Shown here in pieces: positions 2,389 to 44,170 of a DNA stretch of 57,119 bases. How positions within the stretch are numbered: the first letter of the stretch is position 1; each line of letters starts with the position of its first letter. Origin of the DNA: Patescibacteria group bacterium (GTDB lineage Bacteria; Patescibacteriota; Minisyncoccia; Minisyncoccales; UBA5738); the NCBI GenBank assembly GCA_022710775.1, contig JAKLGH010000008.1, positions 1-57,119 of the forward strand, read 5' to 3'. Made by a program: the position numbers and the translations under genes. The notes beneath the pieces were generated by a model. That model searched no databases, was not told the DNA's origin, and saw only the letters and a program-made list of their open reading frames with translations.

Positions 2389-2856
2389 ATGTCGGTACTG
2401 ATCCAGTTGGAGGACGGCTCAATTTTGAATTACAAAACCACGCGCCGAGTAGTATATTGCGTAGAGTGCGGGCAAGAAGGCTGCACCGCAAGCGGAATCG
2501 ATCGCGAAGAGGACGTTAAATATGTGACACCCTGCGGCCTCGAAAATAAACGATCCGATTGGCCAGGGTGCGCTCATCTCGATTGCGCCATAAAACTCGC
2601 TCCAAATACCGAGGCCAGTTGCGTCGAAGCGCAATTGGGATATTTAATTGGTATACTGGTATTTTTATTTGGCTTTTTTGTACACCCGATGCTCGGATTT
2701 TTAGGTATCATAATATTCTTATTAAGCTACCGATCCGAAAAATCCCAAAACGAAATTGCCTCTAAAACAGCGTTGCAGCTGCTCGAGGAATTTAAAAGAT
2801 CGCAAACCATCTACGGCCGTCCGGCCAAAAAAATTAGTTCTTACCCGCGCCAATAG
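2389..2856 (+). CDS. ORFan with Cys-rich N-terminal domain and two membrane segments
   Basis: This 155-aa protein is not recognised. The first 80 residues are soluble and contain paired cysteines (CVECGQEGC, and later CGLE, CAHLDC), which could bind a metal or form disulfides. Two hydrophobic segments (LIGILVFLFGFFV and LGFLGIIIFLLSY, about residues 85-115) form a likely hairpin, followed by a charged tail. The start is supported by GGGAGAAGG ending 2 bases before ATG. The gene is a self-contained unit: its own consensus promoter upstream and a perfect terminator hairpin that overlaps its stop codon. That design recurs at 16.3, 18-21 and 29-30 kb. Confidence 0.8.
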   Translation: MSVLIQLEDGSILNYKTTRRVVYCVECGQEGCTASGIDREEDVKYVTPCGLENKRSDWPGCAHLDCAIKLAPNTEASCVEAQLGYLIGILVFLFGFFVHPMLGFLGIIIFLLSYRSEKSQNEIASKTALQLLEEFKRSQTIYGRPAKKISSYPRQ

Positions 2857-16321: not shown

Positions 16322-16810
16322 TTACCAGTATTTCACCCGGCTTGGATTCAACCCACCATCCTTATAATAGTAAGCTGTGCGCGATATCCAAATAACGGCT
16401 TCTATTGCGGCAACGCCAAAAAAGATCAATTGAGAGTTCAATGGAATCGAGACTATAAAAGAAGCCGCAAGGAATATCATAAGAAGTATTTTGAAGAATT
16501 CCGTACAAACAAACGGCAAAGCAACGTGAACCTGGCGCGCCGGATAACCTTTGATGGTTCCACTTGCAATAAACTCCGTGATATCCTCTTTCTCTTCTTT
16601 TGCCCGCTCCCTGTCTTTTTGATTACCCGATCCGGCCAAATACCACTCTGCCGCTTCCAACACACAGTTTATGTGTTCACAGTCGTTCTCTCCGCACGGC
16701 ATTTCATACCAGCCTCTTTGGCTTTTGACGTAATCTTCCGGGTTGGTAACGTAATATACGCTCATACCATAAGCTTCTATCACGCCGCCCGCCAATATAT
16801 ATACGGTCAC
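16322..16810 (-). CDS. ORFan with two C-terminal membrane segments
   Basis: Read from GTG 16810, the product has 162 aa. GTG was chosen because AGAGGTG ends 5 bases before it on the minus strand, behind a promoter-like TTGACT / TTATCT pair. The N-terminal half is soluble (TVYILAGGVIEAYGMSVYYV..., with CGENDCEHINC), and two hydrophobic stretches follow (FFKILLMIFLAASFIVSI and LIFFGVAAIEAVIWIS). The topology resembles that of the 2389 protein. It is the only minus-strand gene in the first 22 kb and has its own terminator. Not recognised. The overlapping plus-strand frame was rejected. Confidence 0.7.
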   Translation of the reverse strand: MTVYILAGGVIEAYGMSVYYVTNPEDYVKSQRGWYEMPCGENDCEHINCVLEAAEWYLAGSGNQKDRERAKEEKEDITEFIASGTIKGYPARQVHVALPFVCTEFFKILLMIFLAASFIVSIPLNSQLIFFGVAAIEAVIWISRTAYYYKDGGLNPSRVKYW

Positions 16811-17025: not shown

Positions 17026-18093
17026 ATGTCTTTACATGTCGGAATCGTGGGTCTGCCCAATGTGGGAAAGTCCACATTGTTTAAAGCGATCACCAAGAAA
17101 CAGGTGGATTGCGCCAATTATCCGTTTTGCACCATCGACCCGAACGTCGGGGTGGTTGCCGTACAGGATAATAGGGTAGACAGCCTGGCTGAACTGACCA
17201 AATCGGCGAAAAAAATCTATACCACGGTGGAATTCGTGGATATTGCCGGGCTCGTAAAGGGAGCAGCGCAGGGGGAGGGGCTGGGCAATAAGTTTTTGAC
17301 CAATATCCGGGAAACCGACGCTACGCTTTATATTCTGCGCGGCTTTAAGAACGAAAAGATCATCAATACCGAAGAAAATATCGATCCATTGCGCGACAAA
17401 GGGATTCTTGATACCGAACTGGCCTTAAAAGATTTGGAAACCGTGACCAAGCGGGTTTTAAACCTCGAAAGCGACGTGCGCGGACGAAAACCGGAAGCAA
17501 TCAAGGAAATGGAGGTGCTGCCCAAAGCTAAAACCCTGCTGGAAGAAGGAAGGATCTTAAGCGAGATCGAGTGGACCGCCGATGAAAAAAAAGTTTTGGA
17601 TAGCTACCAACTGCTCACCATGAAGCCGCGGCTATATGTGATCAACGCCGCCGAAAACGAAATAGCGCCTGCCACTTTAGAAGCTTTCCAAAAAAACAAC
17701 TGGCCTTACGTGATCATTGATATTCTCGAAGAAAGCGACGCCGAAGGTCTGTCACCCGCGGAGCGGAAAGAGCTTGGCTTGCCCGAAGACTCTAAGCTGG
17801 AAACGCTGATCAAGAAATCATACGAACTATTAAACCTCATTACGTTTTTCACCACCGGGCCCGACGAAACCCGCGCCTGGACGCTAAAGAAGGGGAGCAC
17901 GGCCCCGCAAGCCGGAGGCGTGATCCACAGCGACTTTGAACGGTGTTTCATCCGCGCCGAAGTGATCAACTGGCTCGACCTGATATCGGCCGGAGGGTTT
18001 ACGCAAGCGCGCGAAAGGGCCCTGCTGCGGACCGAAGGCAAGGAATATATTGTCCAGGACGGAGACGTGATCGAGATCAAAGCCAACGCCTAA
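17026..18093 (+). CDS. ychF: Redox-regulated ATPase YchF (OLA1 family)
   Basis: A TRAFAC-class P-loop protein of 355 aa that binds ATP rather than GTP and associates with ribosomes. The P-loop GLPNVGKST (residues 8-16), switch II DIAGLVKGAAQGEGLGNKFL (near 71), the altered G4 position (NAAENE) and the C-terminal TGS domain ending in KEYIVQDGDVIEIKANA are all present. Length is normal (E. coli 363). No Shine-Dalgarno is visible; an AT-rich inverted repeat precedes the start. Confidence 0.97.
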   Translation: MSLHVGIVGLPNVGKSTLFKAITKKQVDCANYPFCTIDPNVGVVAVQDNRVDSLAELTKSAKKIYTTVEFVDIAGLVKGAAQGEGLGNKFLTNIRETDATLYILRGFKNEKIINTEENIDPLRDKGILDTELALKDLETVTKRVLNLESDVRGRKPEAIKEMEVLPKAKTLLEEGRILSEIEWTADEKKVLDSYQLLTMKPRLYVINAAENEIAPATLEAFQKNNWPYVIIDILEESDAEGLSPAERKELGLPEDSKLETLIKKSYELLNLITFFTTGPDETRAWTLKKGSTAPQAGGVIHSDFERCFIRAEVINWLDLISAGGFTQARERALLRTEGKEYIVQDGDVIEIKANA

Positions 18094-18117: not shown

Positions 18118-18146
18118 TTGACAAATTTTCATAATCAGATGATAAC
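18118..18146 (+). promoter_or_regulatory. Promoter of the 18179 gene
   Basis: TTGACA (18118-18123), 17 bases, GATAAC (18141-18146). GGAGG follows at 18167-18171, 7 bases before ATG. Confidence 0.65.
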
Positions 18147-18178
18147 AAAAACAGTGTTTTTAAACCGGAGGTTTAAAG

Positions 18179-18505
18179 ATGGCCGCCAAAACTAACTTGG
18201 GAAGCGAGGAAAGGGTAAGCGCGGTATTAGCCGCAGTGACTAAGGCCGTTTTATCGGGAAATTGGGCCGGAGACGAAGAAATAGCGAGCATCGTTAATAA
18301 CATCGGGGCCAACGCGGAAAACGCCAGATATATTTATACTTTGGAATCGTTGCTTAAGGACAGCCCCGAGGATTCGGCAACAGCCCGCGCATTGAGCGAG
18401 CTCGTCGGAAAACTTAATCAATGCCAGCAAGCTTGCCAAGGTGGCAGCGCCGACAATCATTATCATACTGCGCGCAAAGGATCGGTTGTAGGAATATTGG
18501 GCTAA
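18179..18505 (+). CDS. Small helical ORFan, unit 1 of the tandem cassette cluster
   Basis: A 108-aa protein that resembles the 18991 product over about 60 residues: NWAGDEEIASIVNNIGANAENARYIY..., then SPEDSATARALSELVGKL against NWSNDEEIAAKIKK... and APKNSKTAKALTKLIEKL. The predicted structure is all-helical, like a short HEAT/TPR-type repeat with cap. No function is known. The start is certain: GGAGG with 7-base spacing to ATG. It has its own promoter and terminator. Confidence 0.8.
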   Translation: MAAKTNLGSEERVSAVLAAVTKAVLSGNWAGDEEIASIVNNIGANAENARYIYTLESLLKDSPEDSATARALSELVGKLNQCQQACQGGSADNHYHTARKGSVVGILG

Positions 18506-18532
18506 TAATAATCGGGCTTGCCAAATCATCCT

Positions 18533-18558
18533 AAAGGCTTTAACAGCCTTTTTATTTT
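18533..18558 (+). terminator. Terminator of unit 1
   Basis: AAAGGCT, loop TTAAC, AGCCTTT and TTATTTTT. Confidence 0.85.
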
Positions 18559-18603
18559 TGAGCCGCCAAATTGGCGGGCTTTGCTCCTGCCAATTGAGCC
18601 GGA

Positions 18604-18631
18604 TTGACTTTGCGCAAAAATCGGCTAATAT
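18604..18631 (+). promoter_or_regulatory. Promoter of unit 2
   Basis: TTGACT (18604-18609), 16 bases, TAATAT (18626-18631). GGAGG at 18648-18652 follows. Confidence 0.7.
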
Positions 18632-18659
18632 TTCAGCCAGCACCATAGGAGGGAAAAGA

Positions 18660-18863
18660 ATACCGAATCAAGTGATTCCGAAAAAAGAATTTGAAAGCGG
18701 ATTGGAAGAAGTTGACCGAATATACAATAGCCCGGAATTCCAAGAACAAACGAGACAATTCATCAGAGATTCAAGCACTATTCCGGAAAACGAGTTTGAC
18801 CAGCCAATGTCTACCATATCAAGCTGCCCGATAATGCTGGCATCAATCGTTCCCAAAGAATAA
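18660..18863 (+). CDS. Small ORFan, unit 2, with a likely AUA start codon
   Basis: The frame (PNQVIPKKEFESGLEEVDRIY... ending in MLASIVPKE, 67 aa counting the start) has GGAGG at 18648-18652. Exactly 7 bases later, the normal spacing in this cluster, stands ATA rather than ATG. The next usual start in frame is GTG 18672, 19 bases from the Shine-Dalgarno, which is too far. An AUA start is therefore the simplest reading. It has its own promoter (18604) and terminator (18889). The product is not recognised and is unrelated to units 1 and 3. Confidence 0.6.
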   Translation: MPNQVIPKKEFESGLEEVDRIYNSPEFQEQTRQFIRDSSTIPENEFDQPMSTISSCPIMLASIVPKE

Positions 18864-18888
18864 CGCGACTAGCAAGCTTTAGCCAGCC

Positions 18889-18913
18889 GAGCCGGAAAAC
18901 GGCTCTTTTTTTT
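18889..18913 (+). terminator. Terminator of unit 2
   Basis: GAGCCG, loop GAAAA, CGGCTC followed by eight T. Confidence 0.92.
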
Positions 18914-18930
18914 CGGATCGGGCCAAAACA

Positions 18931-18958
18931 TTGACACAACGGCCAATTACGATAATAT
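18931..18958 (+). promoter_or_regulatory. Promoter of unit 3
   Basis: TTGACA (18931-18936), 16 bases, TAATAT (18953-18958). Confidence 0.75.
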
Positions 18959-18990
18959 CGAACCAGCATCTTAAAAAGGAGGCCAAATAA

Positions 18991-19266
18991 ATGCCTTGGG
19001 AAAAAGAAGAGGCTGAACCGTGCGAAATTGGAATTTTGCTGGCCGATATCGCCTGCGCCAAACCTCTTTACAACTGGTCCAACGACGAGGAAATAGCGGC
19101 CAAAATCAAAAAAATTAAACCATGCGAGGCCAATTTCCGCTATATGGAACTTTTTAAATCCTGGCTAACAAAGGCCCCAAAAAATTCAAAAACGGCGAAA
19201 GCTTTGACCAAGCTTATCGAAAAGCTTGAAAAATACGAACGTTCCCACCGGATCTACATTCTTTAA
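18991..19266 (+). CDS. Small helical ORFan, unit 3, paralogue of unit 1
   Basis: A 91-aa protein. It shares with the 18179 product the N-W-x-x-D-E-E-I-A segment, a second helix pair and the ending S-x-T-A-[RK]-A-L-[ST]-[EK]-L-[VI]-x-K-L. It carries an extra pair of Cys at the start (EPCEIGILLADIACAK). GGAGG stands 8 bases before ATG. No clear terminator follows, so it may be co-transcribed with the next gene. Confidence 0.8.
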   Translation: MPWEKEEAEPCEIGILLADIACAKPLYNWSNDEEIAAKIKKIKPCEANFRYMELFKSWLTKAPKNSKTAKALTKLIEKLEKYERSHRIYIL

Positions 19267-19323
19267 ACGAATGATAATCGGCGCGAATCCGTTAATCTTA
19301 TAGTAAAGAAGGAGGCGACATGG

Positions 19324-19854
19324 ATGGACAGGAAATATTGGCCAGATGAATTAGTCAAGCTGCTGGATAGTTACTTGAAAACCAAAAGCGAAAAAGACTT
19401 TGACAAACTGTTGCGGTGGCTCAAAAAACCATGGATGGATTTTAACATCCTCTACAACGTATATACCGAGCTTAAGGAGCGCGATATAAGAATCATGGCG
19501 GCGGATTTGCCGGAAAAGTATTTGGATCTGCGGCAAAAAATTATCGAGCTAATGCTCCGCGGCGCCGTGCACAACCGCTACGACCGCTACAAACTATACA
19601 GCTTATACGAGATCGCCGAAAAAGAAGGCAAAGCGGATGAGGTACTGGCAATCATCGACCATTGTGCGGAAATCGGCCACAAAGGATACGACGCCAAAAC
19701 TTGGAGGTTTTTCTGGGCCAGTTTCCCGGATACCAAGCTTTCAAAACTGGCCGAGCAAAAATTGGCTGAATTGGGCAAGCCGTTGCCCGAAATGACGGAA
19801 GATGAAAAAAACCTGTTTGTGATCCAGTCAATAGTCGGATCGTTTGCCGCGTAA
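19324..19854 (+). CDS. Helical-repeat ORFan, unit 4
   Basis: A 176-aa all-helical protein. Its C-terminal part (GKADEVLAIIDHCAEIGHKGYDAKT...SFPDTKLSKLAEQKLAEL) has the spacing of HEAT/TPR-like helical pairs, and its end resembles that of unit 5 (SYPEISRQAQSKLDKM). GGAGG at 19311-19315 gives 8 bases to ATG 19324. Another ATG at 19320 would give only a 9-codon peptide. Function unknown. The terminator stem includes its last two codons. Confidence 0.78.
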   Translation: MDRKYWPDELVKLLDSYLKTKSEKDFDKLLRWLKKPWMDFNILYNVYTELKERDIRIMAADLPEKYLDLRQKIIELMLRGAVHNRYDRYKLYSLYEIAEKEGKADEVLAIIDHCAEIGHKGYDAKTWRFFWASFPDTKLSKLAEQKLAELGKPLPEMTEDEKNLFVIQSIVGSFAA

Positions 19855-19870
19855 ATCGCGGCTTTTAATT
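19846..19870 (+). terminator. Terminator of unit 4 overlapping its stop codon
   Basis: GCCGCG, loop TAAAT containing the TAA stop, CGCGGC and TTTTAATTT. Confidence 0.88.
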
Positions 19871-19897
19871 TAGCGGCGCGCGCCGGGCCAAGCTTAA

Positions 19898-19925
19898 TTG
19901 ACAAGCTATAAAAAAATGTTATCAT
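19898..19925 (+). promoter_or_regulatory. Promoter of unit 5
   Basis: TTGACA (19898-19903), 16 bases, TATCAT (19920-19925). Confidence 0.7.
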
Positions 19926-19955
19926 AATCAATCGTACCTTAAAGGAGGAAGACGC

Positions 19956-20474
19956 ATAAACGTTAAAAGCGAACCGGCCGGCGCCGGAAATATTGAAATA
20001 TTTAGAATCGAAGATTTAATCGAGATAGCCGGCATCGGAAATTTGATTGGCGCTAGCCTGGCTCATTTACCCGAAGACATTTTGAAAAAAACCGTCTTCA
20101 TGGATGTGCTAAAAATCCACAATACCGCGCGCTCCGGCTCAAATATCCGGCGCAGGGCCCGGGAAGAATTGCTTAGCCGAAACCGGCCTTTCTACGTGTG
20201 GGAAGGCCTGTATCTCAGCAAAGCCAAACCCGGAACTCTGTTACGAAAATTTGCCGCGCTCAAAATGCTGGAACTGGCAGACAGCGATATTGAGGGTAGG
20301 ATCGCTTACGATGCAGTTTATCGGCTTGCGCCGGAACTACGAATAGAAGCAGGGGAGAAAATCCTGGAAAAGATCGATGATCCAAAGACTTTGCGCAATA
20401 TTGTTACGCAAAAGAGTTACCCGGAAATAAGCCGGCAAGCCCAAAGCAAATTGGATAAAATGTTCACCCTATGA
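19956..20474 (+). CDS. Helical-repeat ORFan, unit 5, with a likely AUA start codon
   Basis: Read from ATA 19956 the protein has 172 aa, close to unit 4 (176). AAAGGAGG (GGAGG at 19944-19948) lies exactly 7 bases before this ATA, and no ATG, GTG or TTG occurs in frame before TTG 20043, which is 94 bases from the Shine-Dalgarno. The added N-terminus (NVKSEPAGAGNIEIFRIEDL) is stop-free. The C-terminal two thirds consist of regular helical pairs (LLRKFAALKMLELADSD..., LRIEAGEKILEKIDD..., SYPEISRQAQSKLDKM), HEAT-like in spacing. Function unknown. Confidence 0.65.
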   Translation: MNVKSEPAGAGNIEIFRIEDLIEIAGIGNLIGASLAHLPEDILKKTVFMDVLKIHNTARSGSNIRRRAREELLSRNRPFYVWEGLYLSKAKPGTLLRKFAALKMLELADSDIEGRIAYDAVYRLAPELRIEAGEKILEKIDDPKTLRNIVTQKSYPEISRQAQSKLDKMFTL

Positions 20475-20500
20475 ATCGCCAGTCGGCGATTCTTCTTTTT
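20474..20500 (+). terminator. Terminator of unit 5
   Basis: AATCGCC, loop AGTC, GGCGATT and CTTCTTTTT. Nearly the same sequence ends unit 6 at 21302. Confidence 0.9.
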
Positions 20501-20614
20501 GGCAAGCGATTGTTGAGGCGCTAACCGTTTCCGCAAATCAGTGAAGGGTTGGCCTCGCAATCCAAAATCTTTGGGTCAAACCCCCACAAATTTGCCTGTT
20601 GTTTTTACCAAATC

Positions 20615-20642
20615 TTGACAAAATAAATATTTGATATATAAT
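20615..20642 (+). promoter_or_regulatory. Consensus promoter of unit 6
   Basis: TTGACA (20615-20620), 16 bases, TATAAT (20637-20642): perfect match in both boxes. Confidence 0.85.
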
Positions 20643-20669
20643 AATTAGTACGATTTAGAGGTGAATTAG

Positions 20670-21302
20670 ATGGAAAGAAGGAACGCGGCAATCTTTGCGG
20701 CCGTAATTACGATCCTGATAATGTCATTATACCAGATCGGTTATATGGCCGAGGGATTTGTCGGAGTAAAAGAGAAAAACGGTGTTGTTGATGTTAACGA
20801 GATTACGCCCGGACATTTTTACGTCCTGCCAAAATCGGTCAACATCACCATGTATAGCACGGATGAACAAAGAATAGAGCTGGTCGCGAATATAAAAACA
20901 AACGAAGACTTTGCTGCCGAACTATACGCGGATATAGTATATATTTTAGACGGTAACAAAGCGGGCGAGCTGCAAAGAGACTATAAAAACGGCAAGCTTT
21001 TTGCCACGGTTTGGAATCAAACCGGTGGCGAAAGCATACCGCCCGGTACGGCTCGTGAGACTCAGCTAAGACTGCCCGAAGCGATCTTGGCGGCCGCCTG
21101 CAATCAGGCCGCAAGTAATTTATACGCCAAAGATCTCTTTACCGACCAGCTTGAAAACGAAACGCTCGCCAACCTGAAAAACAATAACTTAACGCGCGTC
21201 TACGGCTTGAATGTGACGCATTGTATTTTCAGAGGCATTCGTTTGACAGATGAATCAGAGGAAAAAATAGAAAATGCCGTTAGAGCACGGCAGAACCTAT
21301 GA
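20670..21302 (+). CDS. Membrane-anchored SPFH/Band-7-like protein, unit 6
   Basis: A 210-aa protein with one N-terminal membrane segment (AAIFAAVITILIMSLYQIGYM) followed by a beta-rich domain. The order GFVGVKEKNGVV...ITPGHFYVLPKSVNITMYSTDEQRIEL and then a helix ending EEKIENAVRARQNL is like the SPFH/Band 7 fold of stomatins and prohibitins. This is a fold-level likeness only. AGAGGTG lies 6 bases before ATG. Promoter and terminator are its own. Confidence 0.7.
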   Translation: MERRNAAIFAAVITILIMSLYQIGYMAEGFVGVKEKNGVVDVNEITPGHFYVLPKSVNITMYSTDEQRIELVANIKTNEDFAAELYADIVYILDGNKAGELQRDYKNGKLFATVWNQTGGESIPPGTARETQLRLPEAILAAACNQAASNLYAKDLFTDQLENETLANLKNNNLTRVYGLNVTHCIFRGIRLTDESEEKIENAVRARQNL

Positions 21303-21330
21303 ATCGCCCGACCGGCGATTCTTCTTTTTG
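21302..21330 (+). terminator. Terminator of unit 6
   Basis: AATCGCC, loop CGACC, GGCGATT and CTTCTTTTT, almost identical to the terminator at 20474. Confidence 0.9.
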
Positions 21331-21409: not shown

Positions 21410-22261
21410 ATGACCACAAAAATCATTTTTTCCAAAATTTGCCTTGAATATACCTGCCCGGGTTCTCCGGAAACCGCCGAACGGATCGGTTGGGCCGTAA
21501 AATTTTTGAAAACAAAAAAATTCACTTTCATAAAACCGGAACCTTGCGCCGACGACGACCTGCTCCTGGCCCACAGCCCGGCTTACGTAAAAGCGGTCAA
21601 AAAAGGGGAGATCGGCGACGCTGACAGCCCGGCTATCAGCGGAATATACGACTATGCCAAGCTTTCTGCCGGAGCGGCGATCGCCGCGGCCAAAAATAAC
21701 GCTTTTTGCCTGATGCGGCCGCCCGGCCACCATGTTGGGATCAATGGCGCCGCGCTTGGCGTTACCACCCGCGGATTTTGCTATTTCAACAACATCGCCA
21801 TCGCCGTAAAAGCTTTAGGGAAAAAGACTTTGATCATTGATTTTGACGGCCACCACGGAAACGGCACCGAGGAAATTTTCTTGGGCGATGAAAACGTGTC
21901 TTACCTTTCCGTCCACCGTCTGGGAATTTACCCTTGGACTGGCAAGACCAGCCGCCAGAATTGCATAAATTTCGGCTTGCCAGACAAATCCGGAGACGGA
22001 TTATATGTTGAAACGCTTAAAAATGCCCTTCTTAGCCTTGATTTTGCCAAATTCGAACAGATAGGCGTTTCTGCCGGTTTTGACACTCATGATGGCGACC
22101 TGGCCTCTATCGGCCTAAGCTCAAAAGGATTTTCAGAGATTGGTAAACTGATCGGCAAATTGGGCAAACCAACCTTTTTCGTGTTTGAGGGCGGGTACGA
22201 CGGAGAAACCGTCGGCAAGGATATCTACGCTTTCCTGAAAGGATTCGAGAATGCGGATTGA
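21410..22261 (+). CDS. Histone-deacetylase-family (arginase/deacetylase fold) zinc hydrolase
   Basis: A 283-aa amidohydrolase of the HDAC/AcuC/acetylpolyamine type. Diagnostic motifs are MRPPGHHVG (residues 103-111, active-site His pair), GFCYFNNIAIAV, IDFDGHHGNGTEEIF (zinc ligands Asp and His) and VSAGFDTHDGD with the third zinc ligand, then FVFEGGYD. The set of catalytic residues is complete. Substrates of bacterial members include acetyl-polyamines and acetylated proteins, and context does not select one. It converges with the Xer gene across an inverted repeat. Confidence 0.9.
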   Translation: MTTKIIFSKICLEYTCPGSPETAERIGWAVKFLKTKKFTFIKPEPCADDDLLLAHSPAYVKAVKKGEIGDADSPAISGIYDYAKLSAGAAIAAAKNNAFCLMRPPGHHVGINGAALGVTTRGFCYFNNIAIAVKALGKKTLIIDFDGHHGNGTEEIFLGDENVSYLSVHRLGIYPWTGKTSRQNCINFGLPDKSGDGLYVETLKNALLSLDFAKFEQIGVSAGFDTHDGDLASIGLSSKGFSEIGKLIGKLGKPTFFVFEGGYDGETVGKDIYAFLKGFENAD

Positions 22262-29283: not shown

Positions 29284-29637
29284 CTAACGTCCGTCAACTT
29301 TTATCCATTTGACCAAGCGGATTTTTTTGCGGAAAGCCGCAAGCTCTTCCCTAAGACGGAAGATCTCTTCTTTCATTTCCGGATCAGCCGTGTCGATCAA
29401 AAGCCGGAAAAAATCTTTTTTCGCCAGCGGATCAAGAACGAGGCTGATAGCCAGCTCGGGAGATTGAGGCACGGATTTTTTCAATTCAGCATCGGTCCAA
29501 TCCCGCGAAATATTAAGAAGCTTTGAAAACCACTCGTTTCCGCGGTAATTTGCCAACACGGCATTGATCCTGGGCAAAATTTCAAGCCAGTCAGACTTGA
29601 GGCCGTCGGGCGTCAACGGATTTTTTTTAAGGCGCAA
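29284..29637 (-). CDS. ORFan cassette unit with TTG start, inside the dcw cluster
   Basis: A 117-aa soluble protein rich in helices (ELAISLVLDPLAKKDFFRLL, DPEMKEEIFRLREELAAFRKKIRL). Not recognised. The start TTG 29637 lies 7 bases after GGAGG on the minus strand; the longer frame from 29724 would begin inside the neighbour's terminator. TTGACA (29684-29679) and ATAATA (29661-29656) are spaced by 17 bases. Promoter, strong Shine-Dalgarno and terminator make it a self-contained unit between murL and murD. Confidence 0.72.
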   Translation of the reverse strand: MRLKKNPLTPDGLKSDWLEILPRINAVLANYRGNEWFSKLLNISRDWTDAELKKSVPQSPELAISLVLDPLAKKDFFRLLIDTADPEMKEEIFRLREELAAFRKKIRLVKWIKVDGR

Positions 29638-29724: not shown

Positions 29725-30252
29725 TTAAAATGTCTTGCCTAATACGTGGAGCGCCAGCCCGGCAAGCAATAAGATAATTAAAATGAATAACCAAGTCAGG
29801 TCCGTTTTCTTTGTTTTATATCTCAGCGCCGTCGCGTTTAATTCTTTGAAAACATAACCTCCTTCGAGTATGCAATATGTCTCCGACCGGGTAACCCATG
29901 GACCGCCGCGCTTGTTAAAAGCATAAAAGTTCCTGGTCAAGCATGGCAAATCCAGAACATCGACGTATCTGATGGTATCCAAGCTGAGATTTATCGTTTC
30001 GTTCAAGAAAGCGCTTAAATTGTTCTGCCTTATTTCGGGAACTGCGGCGCCGCCGGCCCCGCCGAAAGCAACGTGACCTACCCAGATATTTGTTACATCA
30101 TCCGCTCTCTTAAAATCAATTCCGTGCTCGGCTGCGTGCCGCGCGATGCTTTGATCAAGCAGAATTACTTTTTCTTCGTAGCCGTCATTATGTTCGCTGC
30201 CGCAGCCGCACGCGCATGCCGCGAACAGCAGGATCAACAAAATAAATTTCAA
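29725..30252 (-). CDS. Predicted lipoprotein-like ORFan unit with TTG start
   Basis: A 175-aa protein. The N-terminus MKFILLILLFAACACGCGSE looks like a type II signal peptide (candidate lipobox FAAC or ACGC), and a membrane segment ends the protein (WLFILIILLLAGLALHVLG). No domain is recognised. The start is TTG with AAGGAAGG 8 bases before it, so Shine-Dalgarno and promoter both support it. It has its own terminator and breaks the dcw gene order between murL and murD. Confidence 0.75.
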   Translation of the reverse strand: MKFILLILLFAACACGCGSEHNDGYEEKVILLDQSIARHAAEHGIDFKRADDVTNIWVGHVAFGGAGGAAVPEIRQNNLSAFLNETINLSLDTIRYVDVLDLPCLTRNFYAFNKRGGPWVTRSETYCILEGGYVFKELNATALRYKTKKTDLTWLFILIILLLAGLALHVLGKTF

Positions 30253-41694: not shown

Positions 41695-41801
41695 ATCGAA
41701 TTTATATTTTTCTATCGGTATTTCGCCTCCCGGGGTACGAACCCCCGGCGGTGACCGAAGGAAATCCCGAAGCATTGAGGGGCGACCAGAGGATGTTTCC
41801 T
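41695..41801. repeat. About 107-bp dispersed repeat, copy A1
   Basis: It matches 44044-44151 at roughly 80% of positions. Shared blocks are ATTTCGCC, GACCGAAGGA, ATTGAGGGGCG and CCAGAGGATGTTTCC. Internal stems (CCGGGG...CCCCGG; CCC...GGG) can form in both copies. With the hairpin array that follows, it accounts for the gene-free stretch 41590-41932. Confidence 0.75.
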
Positions 41802-41802
41802 C

Positions 41803-41907
41803 CCCCGCAGGATGCGGGGCGGAGTACCTAAGTCCTCCTCATTTCTGCCCGCTTTTTGCGGGCAGGAAGCCTAAGGCTTCATTTTGTTCCCCGGGCTTGT
41901 CCCGGAG
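41803..41907. repeat. Array of four tandem hairpins
   Basis: H1 41803-41819 (CCCCGCA / TGCGGGG, loop GGA), H2 41845-41865 (CTGCCCGC / GCGGGCAG, loop TTTTT), H3 41866-41880 (GAAGCC / GGCTTC, loop TAA) and H4 41889-41907 (CCCCGGG / CCCGGAG, one mismatch). H4 belongs to the repeat also found at 16243 and 44171. The array lies between the 37-aa gene and the kinase on the minus strand. Confidence 0.85.
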
Positions 41908-44043: not shown

Positions 44044-44151
44044 ATCGATTATATATTTTTTTATTTGAAATTTCGCCTTCCTGGTTACGATCCCCGGGGC
44101 TGCGACCGAAGGAGACCCCGCAGAATTGAGGGGCGGCCAGAGGATGTTTCC
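44044..44151. repeat. About 107-bp dispersed repeat, copy A2
   Basis: Counterpart of 41695-41801. The stretch 43974-44346 holds no gene. Besides this repeat it contains a shortened CCCCGG hairpin copy at 44171-44195 (TTCCCCGGCAAGCCCGGGTC). Confidence 0.75.
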
Positions 44152-44170
44152 TTTGGACTTCCCACCCATC

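Follow-up and report, generated by a model that had tools for sequence, protein, structure and literature searches.

We analysed a 57,119-nucleotide (nt) stretch of a Patescibacteria genome from the order Minisyncoccales (contig JAKLGH010000008.1 of assembly GCA_022710775.1, positions 1-57,119; hereafter the window), which between ychF (17026-18093) and an HDAC-like gene (21410-22261) holds a row of six open reading frames (ORFs; 18179-21302), most of them with their own promoter, Shine-Dalgarno (SD) sequence and terminator. The six are members of a class of accessory, largely self-contained gene units that extends across the genome, in an organism whose only 16S rRNA gene found ends without an anti-SD sequence.

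The row at 18118-21330 and its conservation

The genome of the window (G000) was compared with the sole other sampled species of the same genus (G001; genus g1), with two genomes of a sister genus (G002 and G003) and with other genomes of the order, including those of another family, f9. All are draft assemblies (incomplete metagenome-assembled genomes, MAGs) except G002, which is complete; the G001 copy of the row was read from a public MAG, contig CAINCQ010000018.1.

An earlier note on this DNA had described the promoters, SDs and terminators of the six ORFs, and on re-measurement the description stood throughout. Pairs of -35 and -10 boxes, with a TTGACA/T box and 16-17 base pair spacing, precede five of the six (none is clear for the ORF at 19324); GGAGG stands 7-8 nt upstream of the start in five, the ORF at 20670 having GAGGTG (as AGAGGTG) at 6 nt; and stem-loop/T-run terminators follow five, none being present after the ORF at 18991. 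All features lie on the forward strand, and terminator limits are approximate. Unit 1 comprises a TTGACA-17-GATAAC promoter (18118-18146), GGAGG (18167-18171) 7 nt from the ATG of an ORF of 108 amino acids (aa; 18179-18505), and a hairpin with T-run (18533-18560). Unit 2 has TTGACT-16-TAATAT (18604-18631), GGAGG (18648-18652) 7 nt from an ATA, a 67-aa ORF (18660-18863) with this ATA at its start position and ATG in the G001 orthologue, and a hairpin with T-run (18889-18914). Unit 3, whose 91-aa ORF (18991-19266) is a paralogue of that of unit 1 (34% identity), has TTGACA-16-TAATAT (18931-18958), with -35, -10 and leader conserved in G001, and GGAGG (18978-18982) 8 nt from the ATG, without a visible terminator. 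In unit 4, GGAGG (19311-19315) lies 8 nt from the ATG without a clear promoter; the 176-aa ORF (19324-19854), which has two tandem orthologues in G001, is predicted to form an all-helical repeat fold that resembles helical repeats in general, with no PDB match at E ≤ 0.001, and a terminator hairpin (19847-19872) overlaps the stop. Unit 5 has TTGACA-16-TATCAT (19898-19925), GGAGG (19944-19948) 7 nt from an ATA, a 172-aa ORF with ATA at the start position (19956-20474; the G001 orthologue is 58% identical and has ATG; the predicted structure was too poor for use) and a terminator overlapping the stop codon (20473-20502). Unit 6 has TTGACA-16-TATAAT (20615-20642), GAGGTG (20658-20663) 6 nt from the ATG, a 210-aa ORF (20670-21302) with an N-terminal hydrophobic stretch and weak SPFH/Band 7 similarity, and a terminator (21301-21330) near-identical to that of unit 5; the G001 orthologues of units 5 and 6 both have a terminator very similar to this shared one.

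The ATA at the start positions of 18660 and 19956, in place of ATG, GTG or TTG, had been missed previously. For unit 5, the interval from the SD to the G001-conserved stretch contains no ATG, GTG or TTG, which makes ATA, or a codon close by, the likeliest start. Other SD-led ORFs with an odd start position lie at C5:12050(-) and C12:36820(+) in G000 and at C2:544 in G001; together with the two in the window these make five, with ATA in three and ATC in two, at or near the optimal SD distance. Near-cognate starts are possibly tolerated behind strong SDs, and a genome-wide role for AUA starts was not supported.

The cluster occupies the same position in G001, between ychF and the HDAC-like gene, with orthologues of units 2, 3 (of the unit 1/3 family), 4 (two, in tandem), 5 and 6 and one extra ORF, most of them carrying their own promoter, SD and terminator. 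The sister genus (G002, G003) lacks it and has a single unrelated gene after ychF, so that conservation in place does not extend to all relatives. Within the order, the unit 4 family occurs in just 2 of 246 genomes and the unit 5 family in 2 of 59. The ratio of nonsynonymous to synonymous divergence (dN/dS) of window units against G001 is 0.13-0.32 where dS could be estimated (1.5-2.5; dS is saturated elsewhere), and the window units are therefore real coding genes under purifying selection.

The idea that the row is cassette-like, made of singly acquired modules, was not supported, given its presence in place in G001 with a tandem duplication, the lack of a repeated site and the lack of phage or viral homologues of the tested units. 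No repeated junction or recombination site was found between units, the sole exact long repeat being the shared unit 5/6 terminator. Integron cassettes and other acquired single-gene modules likewise form rows of small ORFans of uniform build, but integron cassettes are promoterless and carry a repeated recombination site, whereas these units have their own promoters and terminators, no repeated site, and a syntenic cluster in the second species, and an integron or cassette array was rejected on these grounds. A phage or viral origin was rejected because the tested units have no viral relatives: IMG/VR held no homologues of units 1/3, 4 or 5, a phage collection held none of unit 5, and PHROGs gave a match, SPFH-like, for unit 6 only.

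Shine-Dalgarno sequences before accessory and conserved genes

Base-by-base reading covered 686 kb of the 1.16 Mb of G000 (59%) and 286 kb of G001. Genes were called from codon usage without use of the SD, and a window shifted 45 nt upstream served as control. We define core genes as those with a tblastn match in the complete genome of G002, a single sister-genus genome serving as reference, and orphans as those without such a homologue.

An SD precedes 58 of 254 orphans and 5 of 346 core genes in G000 (p = 2.5e-18), with 8 and 21, respectively, in the control window. Restricting the comparison to promoter-proximal genes gives 51/192 and 2/220 (p = 1e-16), size-matched bins show the same trend of SDs being commoner in orphans, and in G001 the counts are 18 of 83 other genes and 3 of 130 conserved ones. 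SDs are thus far from equally frequent before conserved genes, and the proposal of two coexisting initiation regimes, ORFans belonging to the strong one, finds strong support both genome-wide in G000 and in a second species. We rejected a start-codon artefact, as starts were called without SD information and checked against the shifted control. The two classes also differ in their surroundings: a TTGACA promoter is present in 52% of SD orphans versus 13% of core genes, a terminator in 51% versus 19%, a TTGAC peak at -65 to -55 appears in the SD class only, and core genes have, in place of an SD, an A/T-rich AATAA-type start context. Besides ORFans, the SD class includes purA-, purB-, purC-, nadB- and NAD-kinase-like genes and a kinase-like protein.

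The combined promoter-SD pattern, TTGACW-N16-18-TANNNT-N14-40-GGAGG, has 43 matches in G000 and none when reversed, and it recurs across the order (pattern versus reversed control: G001, 73 vs 1; G145, 50 vs 0; G012, 41 vs 1; G154, 26 vs 1). Enrichment in the sister genus is weak (G002, 5 vs 0), and SDs there precede about 2% of genes, at or below control, so that G002 shows no SD class. For f9, where counts come from loci fetched for their promoter-SD pattern and are to that extent ascertained, an SD stands before 22 of 48 genes without a G002 match versus 1 of 25 conserved genes. The purA family is present in 14 of 246 genomes of the order and, among those read, is SD-led only in f9 and g1, and not in five other families with a readable start region.

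Several properties of these SDs point to functional signals. They lie at a near-constant distance from the start codon (mode 7 nt, standard deviation 1.8) and at a variable one from the -10 box (standard deviation 13.3), which shows that SD position is tied to the start codon rather than to the promoter. The top k-mers before orphans are GGAGG, AGGAG, AGGTG, GAGGT, AAGGA and GGTGA; every register of AAAGGAGGTGA is used, and the enriched k-mers, with AAAGG at one end and GGTGA at the other, together cover the entire sequence complementary to the canonical tail. Matches of at least 7 nt to AAAGGAGGTGATC occur before 28 of 257 orphans, with none in the control region, and before none of 303 core genes, with 2 in control. 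Spacing becomes shorter as the register moves 3' (rho -0.42, p = 4e-5), and register use and shifting spacing are both as predicted by pairing with the canonical tail 5'-UCACCUCCUUU-3'. Finally, most SD-led orthologue pairs between G000 and G001, at about 27-68% aa identity, keep the SD in both leaders; in the clearest pair (18991), the -35, -10, leader and SD are all kept and the spacer has diverged. Retention of SDs at saturated synonymous divergence would be difficult to account for in the absence of selection.

Leaders in g1 and in other families, among matches to the promoter-SD pattern, often contain CAG(T/C)NCTTTAAAAAGGAGG, a boxA-like stretch (GCTCTTTAACA) between the presumed transcription start site and the SD.

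The earlier note had also pointed to four isolated units of the same build in the window. Three of these stand: 2389-2856(+), with a TTGACA promoter and SD-like GGGAGA; 29284-29637(-), with TTGACA-16-AATAAT, GGAGG 7 nt from a TTG and an SD-bearing G001 orthologue; and 29725-30252(-), with a TTGACA promoter and AAGGAAGG 8 nt upstream of a TTG. The fourth, 16322-16810(-), has GAGGTG 5 nt upstream of a GTG without a good promoter. Elsewhere in G000, C1:169742-176886, conserved in G001, encodes purA-like, von Willebrand A (vWA)-like and J-domain/kinase-like proteins, several of them SD-led, and resembles a kinase/vWA signalling island; C12:13960-15470 holds four to five AGGAGGTGA motifs in a stretch where most frames are short or broken and which may consist of SD units in decay, and one of these motifs, TTAAGGAGGTGATC, is a long complement of the canonical 16S tail.

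The 16S rRNA tail

The sole 16S gene found in G000 ends GGATCAATTAATTTATTTTTTG, without an anti-SD (GGATCAATTAATTT), and CCTCC occurs nowhere in the gene or in 3.6 kb of the 16S locus. The tail AATTAATTTA, also CCTCC-free, is common to G001, G002 and G004, and CCTCC is absent from every readable 16S tail of the order, in about 25 genomes from many families. A 16S without an anti-SD makes the SD class paradoxical.

We looked for a second 16S or an intron-displaced anti-SD and found none, the G000 16S locus being CCTCC-free. Matches to GGATCACCTCC were accounted for in f22 by rRNA-like sequence, probably 23S read antisense, and in G000 by an SD unit read antisense. An intergenic repeat family considered as a candidate trans anti-SD RNA was rejected: most copies are oriented so that the transcribed sense would carry GGAGG, and there was no Rfam match. 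The family has several hairpins, is about 100-160 nt long, lies mostly in fixed orientation to flanking genes, and is present in g1 and not found in G002; copies lie at 41741-41900 and 44097-44153 in the window, at C1:65625, 71211, 71522 and 93713, C5:7599, C12:25861(-) and C2:18208 in G000, and also in G001.

Candidate readers of the Shine-Dalgarno sequences

We give a probability of roughly 0.4 to the reading that the SD signals are functional on the accessory units and that their reader is an RNA or ribosome which bears CCUCC and is distinct from the encoded 16S tail. On this reading, accessory units, each of which combines a TTGACA/TATAAT promoter and often an intrinsic terminator with a canonical SD about 7 nt upstream of the start, would use the SD as a working translation signal in these cells, or wherever such mRNAs are translated; if the SD works, some RNA with CCUCC, separate from the encoded 16S tail, would have to read it. 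The most likely reader would be an anti-SD RNA acting in trans, a minority ribosome, or a 16S 3' end that is replaced or added in the same cell, and it may serve to keep accessory expression separate from core expression. Only tentatively, and with some doubt, do we extend this to the proposal that members of the order have two initiation systems. Core genes would be served by a ribosome that lacks the anti-SD, and accessory genes by a separate, dedicated reader that carries CCUCC, be it a trans-acting RNA, a minority ribosome or a 16S tail gained after transcription.

Several results weigh against a CCUCC-bearing reader. No second 16S gene was found in these incomplete MAGs, with 59% of G000 read base by base; whole-genome searches for GGATCACCTCC gave no 16S-like end; and a scan of non-coding CCTCC gave no convincing RNA. 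SD-led genes are only about a quarter of all orphans, and the relation between register and spacing is moderate, and weaker at the GGTGAT end. It is conceivable that the organisms possess a second, CCUCC-tailed 16S gene that is missing from the assemblies, as MAG assembly often loses or splits rRNA genes and the G001 16S is itself split over contigs C20 and C2. We consider this improbable, since G000 and G012 each have a single 16S, the G012 copy sitting within one contig of an assembly of 6 contigs that has 41 SD promoters, and the same GGATCACCTCC searches bear on it too.

The accessory, patchy distribution of SD genes, exemplified by the purA family, the presence of purA/B/C-like, nadB-like and NAD-kinase-like genes among them and the absence of the window units from the sister genus would also suit units acquired from a pool of genes that took shape in bacteria with ordinary ribosomes, the donor SD, promoter and terminator being retained or refreshed by repeated exchange. 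This is rather unlikely: the cluster is syntenic between G000 and G001 and under purifying selection, and SDs are still present at dS of at least 1.5, where an idle GGAGG would have decayed, and the tested units lack homologues in phage and viral collections. A reader that is a protein, either a ribosomal protein or a CsrA-like regulator recognising GGAGG/GAGGTG, would dispense with an RNA tail, and the absence of CCUCC from the encoded 16S does make pairing with its tail impossible; we judge it unlikely nonetheless, as the sub-registers either side of the core (AAAGG, AGGTGA), with their shifted spacing, suit base pairing better than a single protein motif. Very improbable, in our view, is that the units are meant for expression in another cell, such as a bacterial host with sigma70 polymerase and anti-SD ribosomes, in the manner of plant signals on Agrobacterium T-DNA genes. 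The promoter, SD and terminator of the units all take the form that is canonical in ordinary bacteria, and core genes use different signals, but the units occur as scattered single genes, their codon usage is native, metabolic enzymes are among them, and neither transfer machinery nor border repeats were seen.

Bacteria that lose the anti-SD lose SDs as well, according to published surveys (Lim et al. 2012, PMC3522020; a 2018 survey, PMC6107228), and examples of anti-SD-less members of the Candidate Phyla Radiation include SR1, Campbellbacteria, Wolfebacteria and Peribacter (a 2024 survey, PMC10783764). The anti-SD-less bacteria of these three sources share with the present genomes a CCUCC-free 16S tail, mostly SD-less genes and small genome size; those surveyed lose their SDs as well, whereas here a conserved gene class retains canonical SDs. 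The core genes fit the pattern of combined anti-SD and SD absence and the SD-enriched orphans do not. In Flavobacteriales, strong SDs are similarly limited to special genes, namely rpsU (bS21), and SDs are otherwise ignored (PMC9976891), but the 16S there still has an anti-SD, or a covarying variant of it, which bS21 occludes (PMC9976891), whereas here the 16S has no anti-SD and dozens of accessory genes are involved. Measured against canonical SD-led initiation, the class shows the fixed SD distance and the tail-pairing registers, and a CCUCC-bearing 16S tail was not found in the same genome.

Selected, register-flexible SDs in an anti-SD-less order break the accepted rule that SDs vanish with the anti-SD. 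They would point either to specialised translation with a carrier of the anti-SD that has yet to be discovered, or to accessory genes that must meet the requirements of ribosomes in other cells, and either answer bears on how these very small genomes handle acquired genes.

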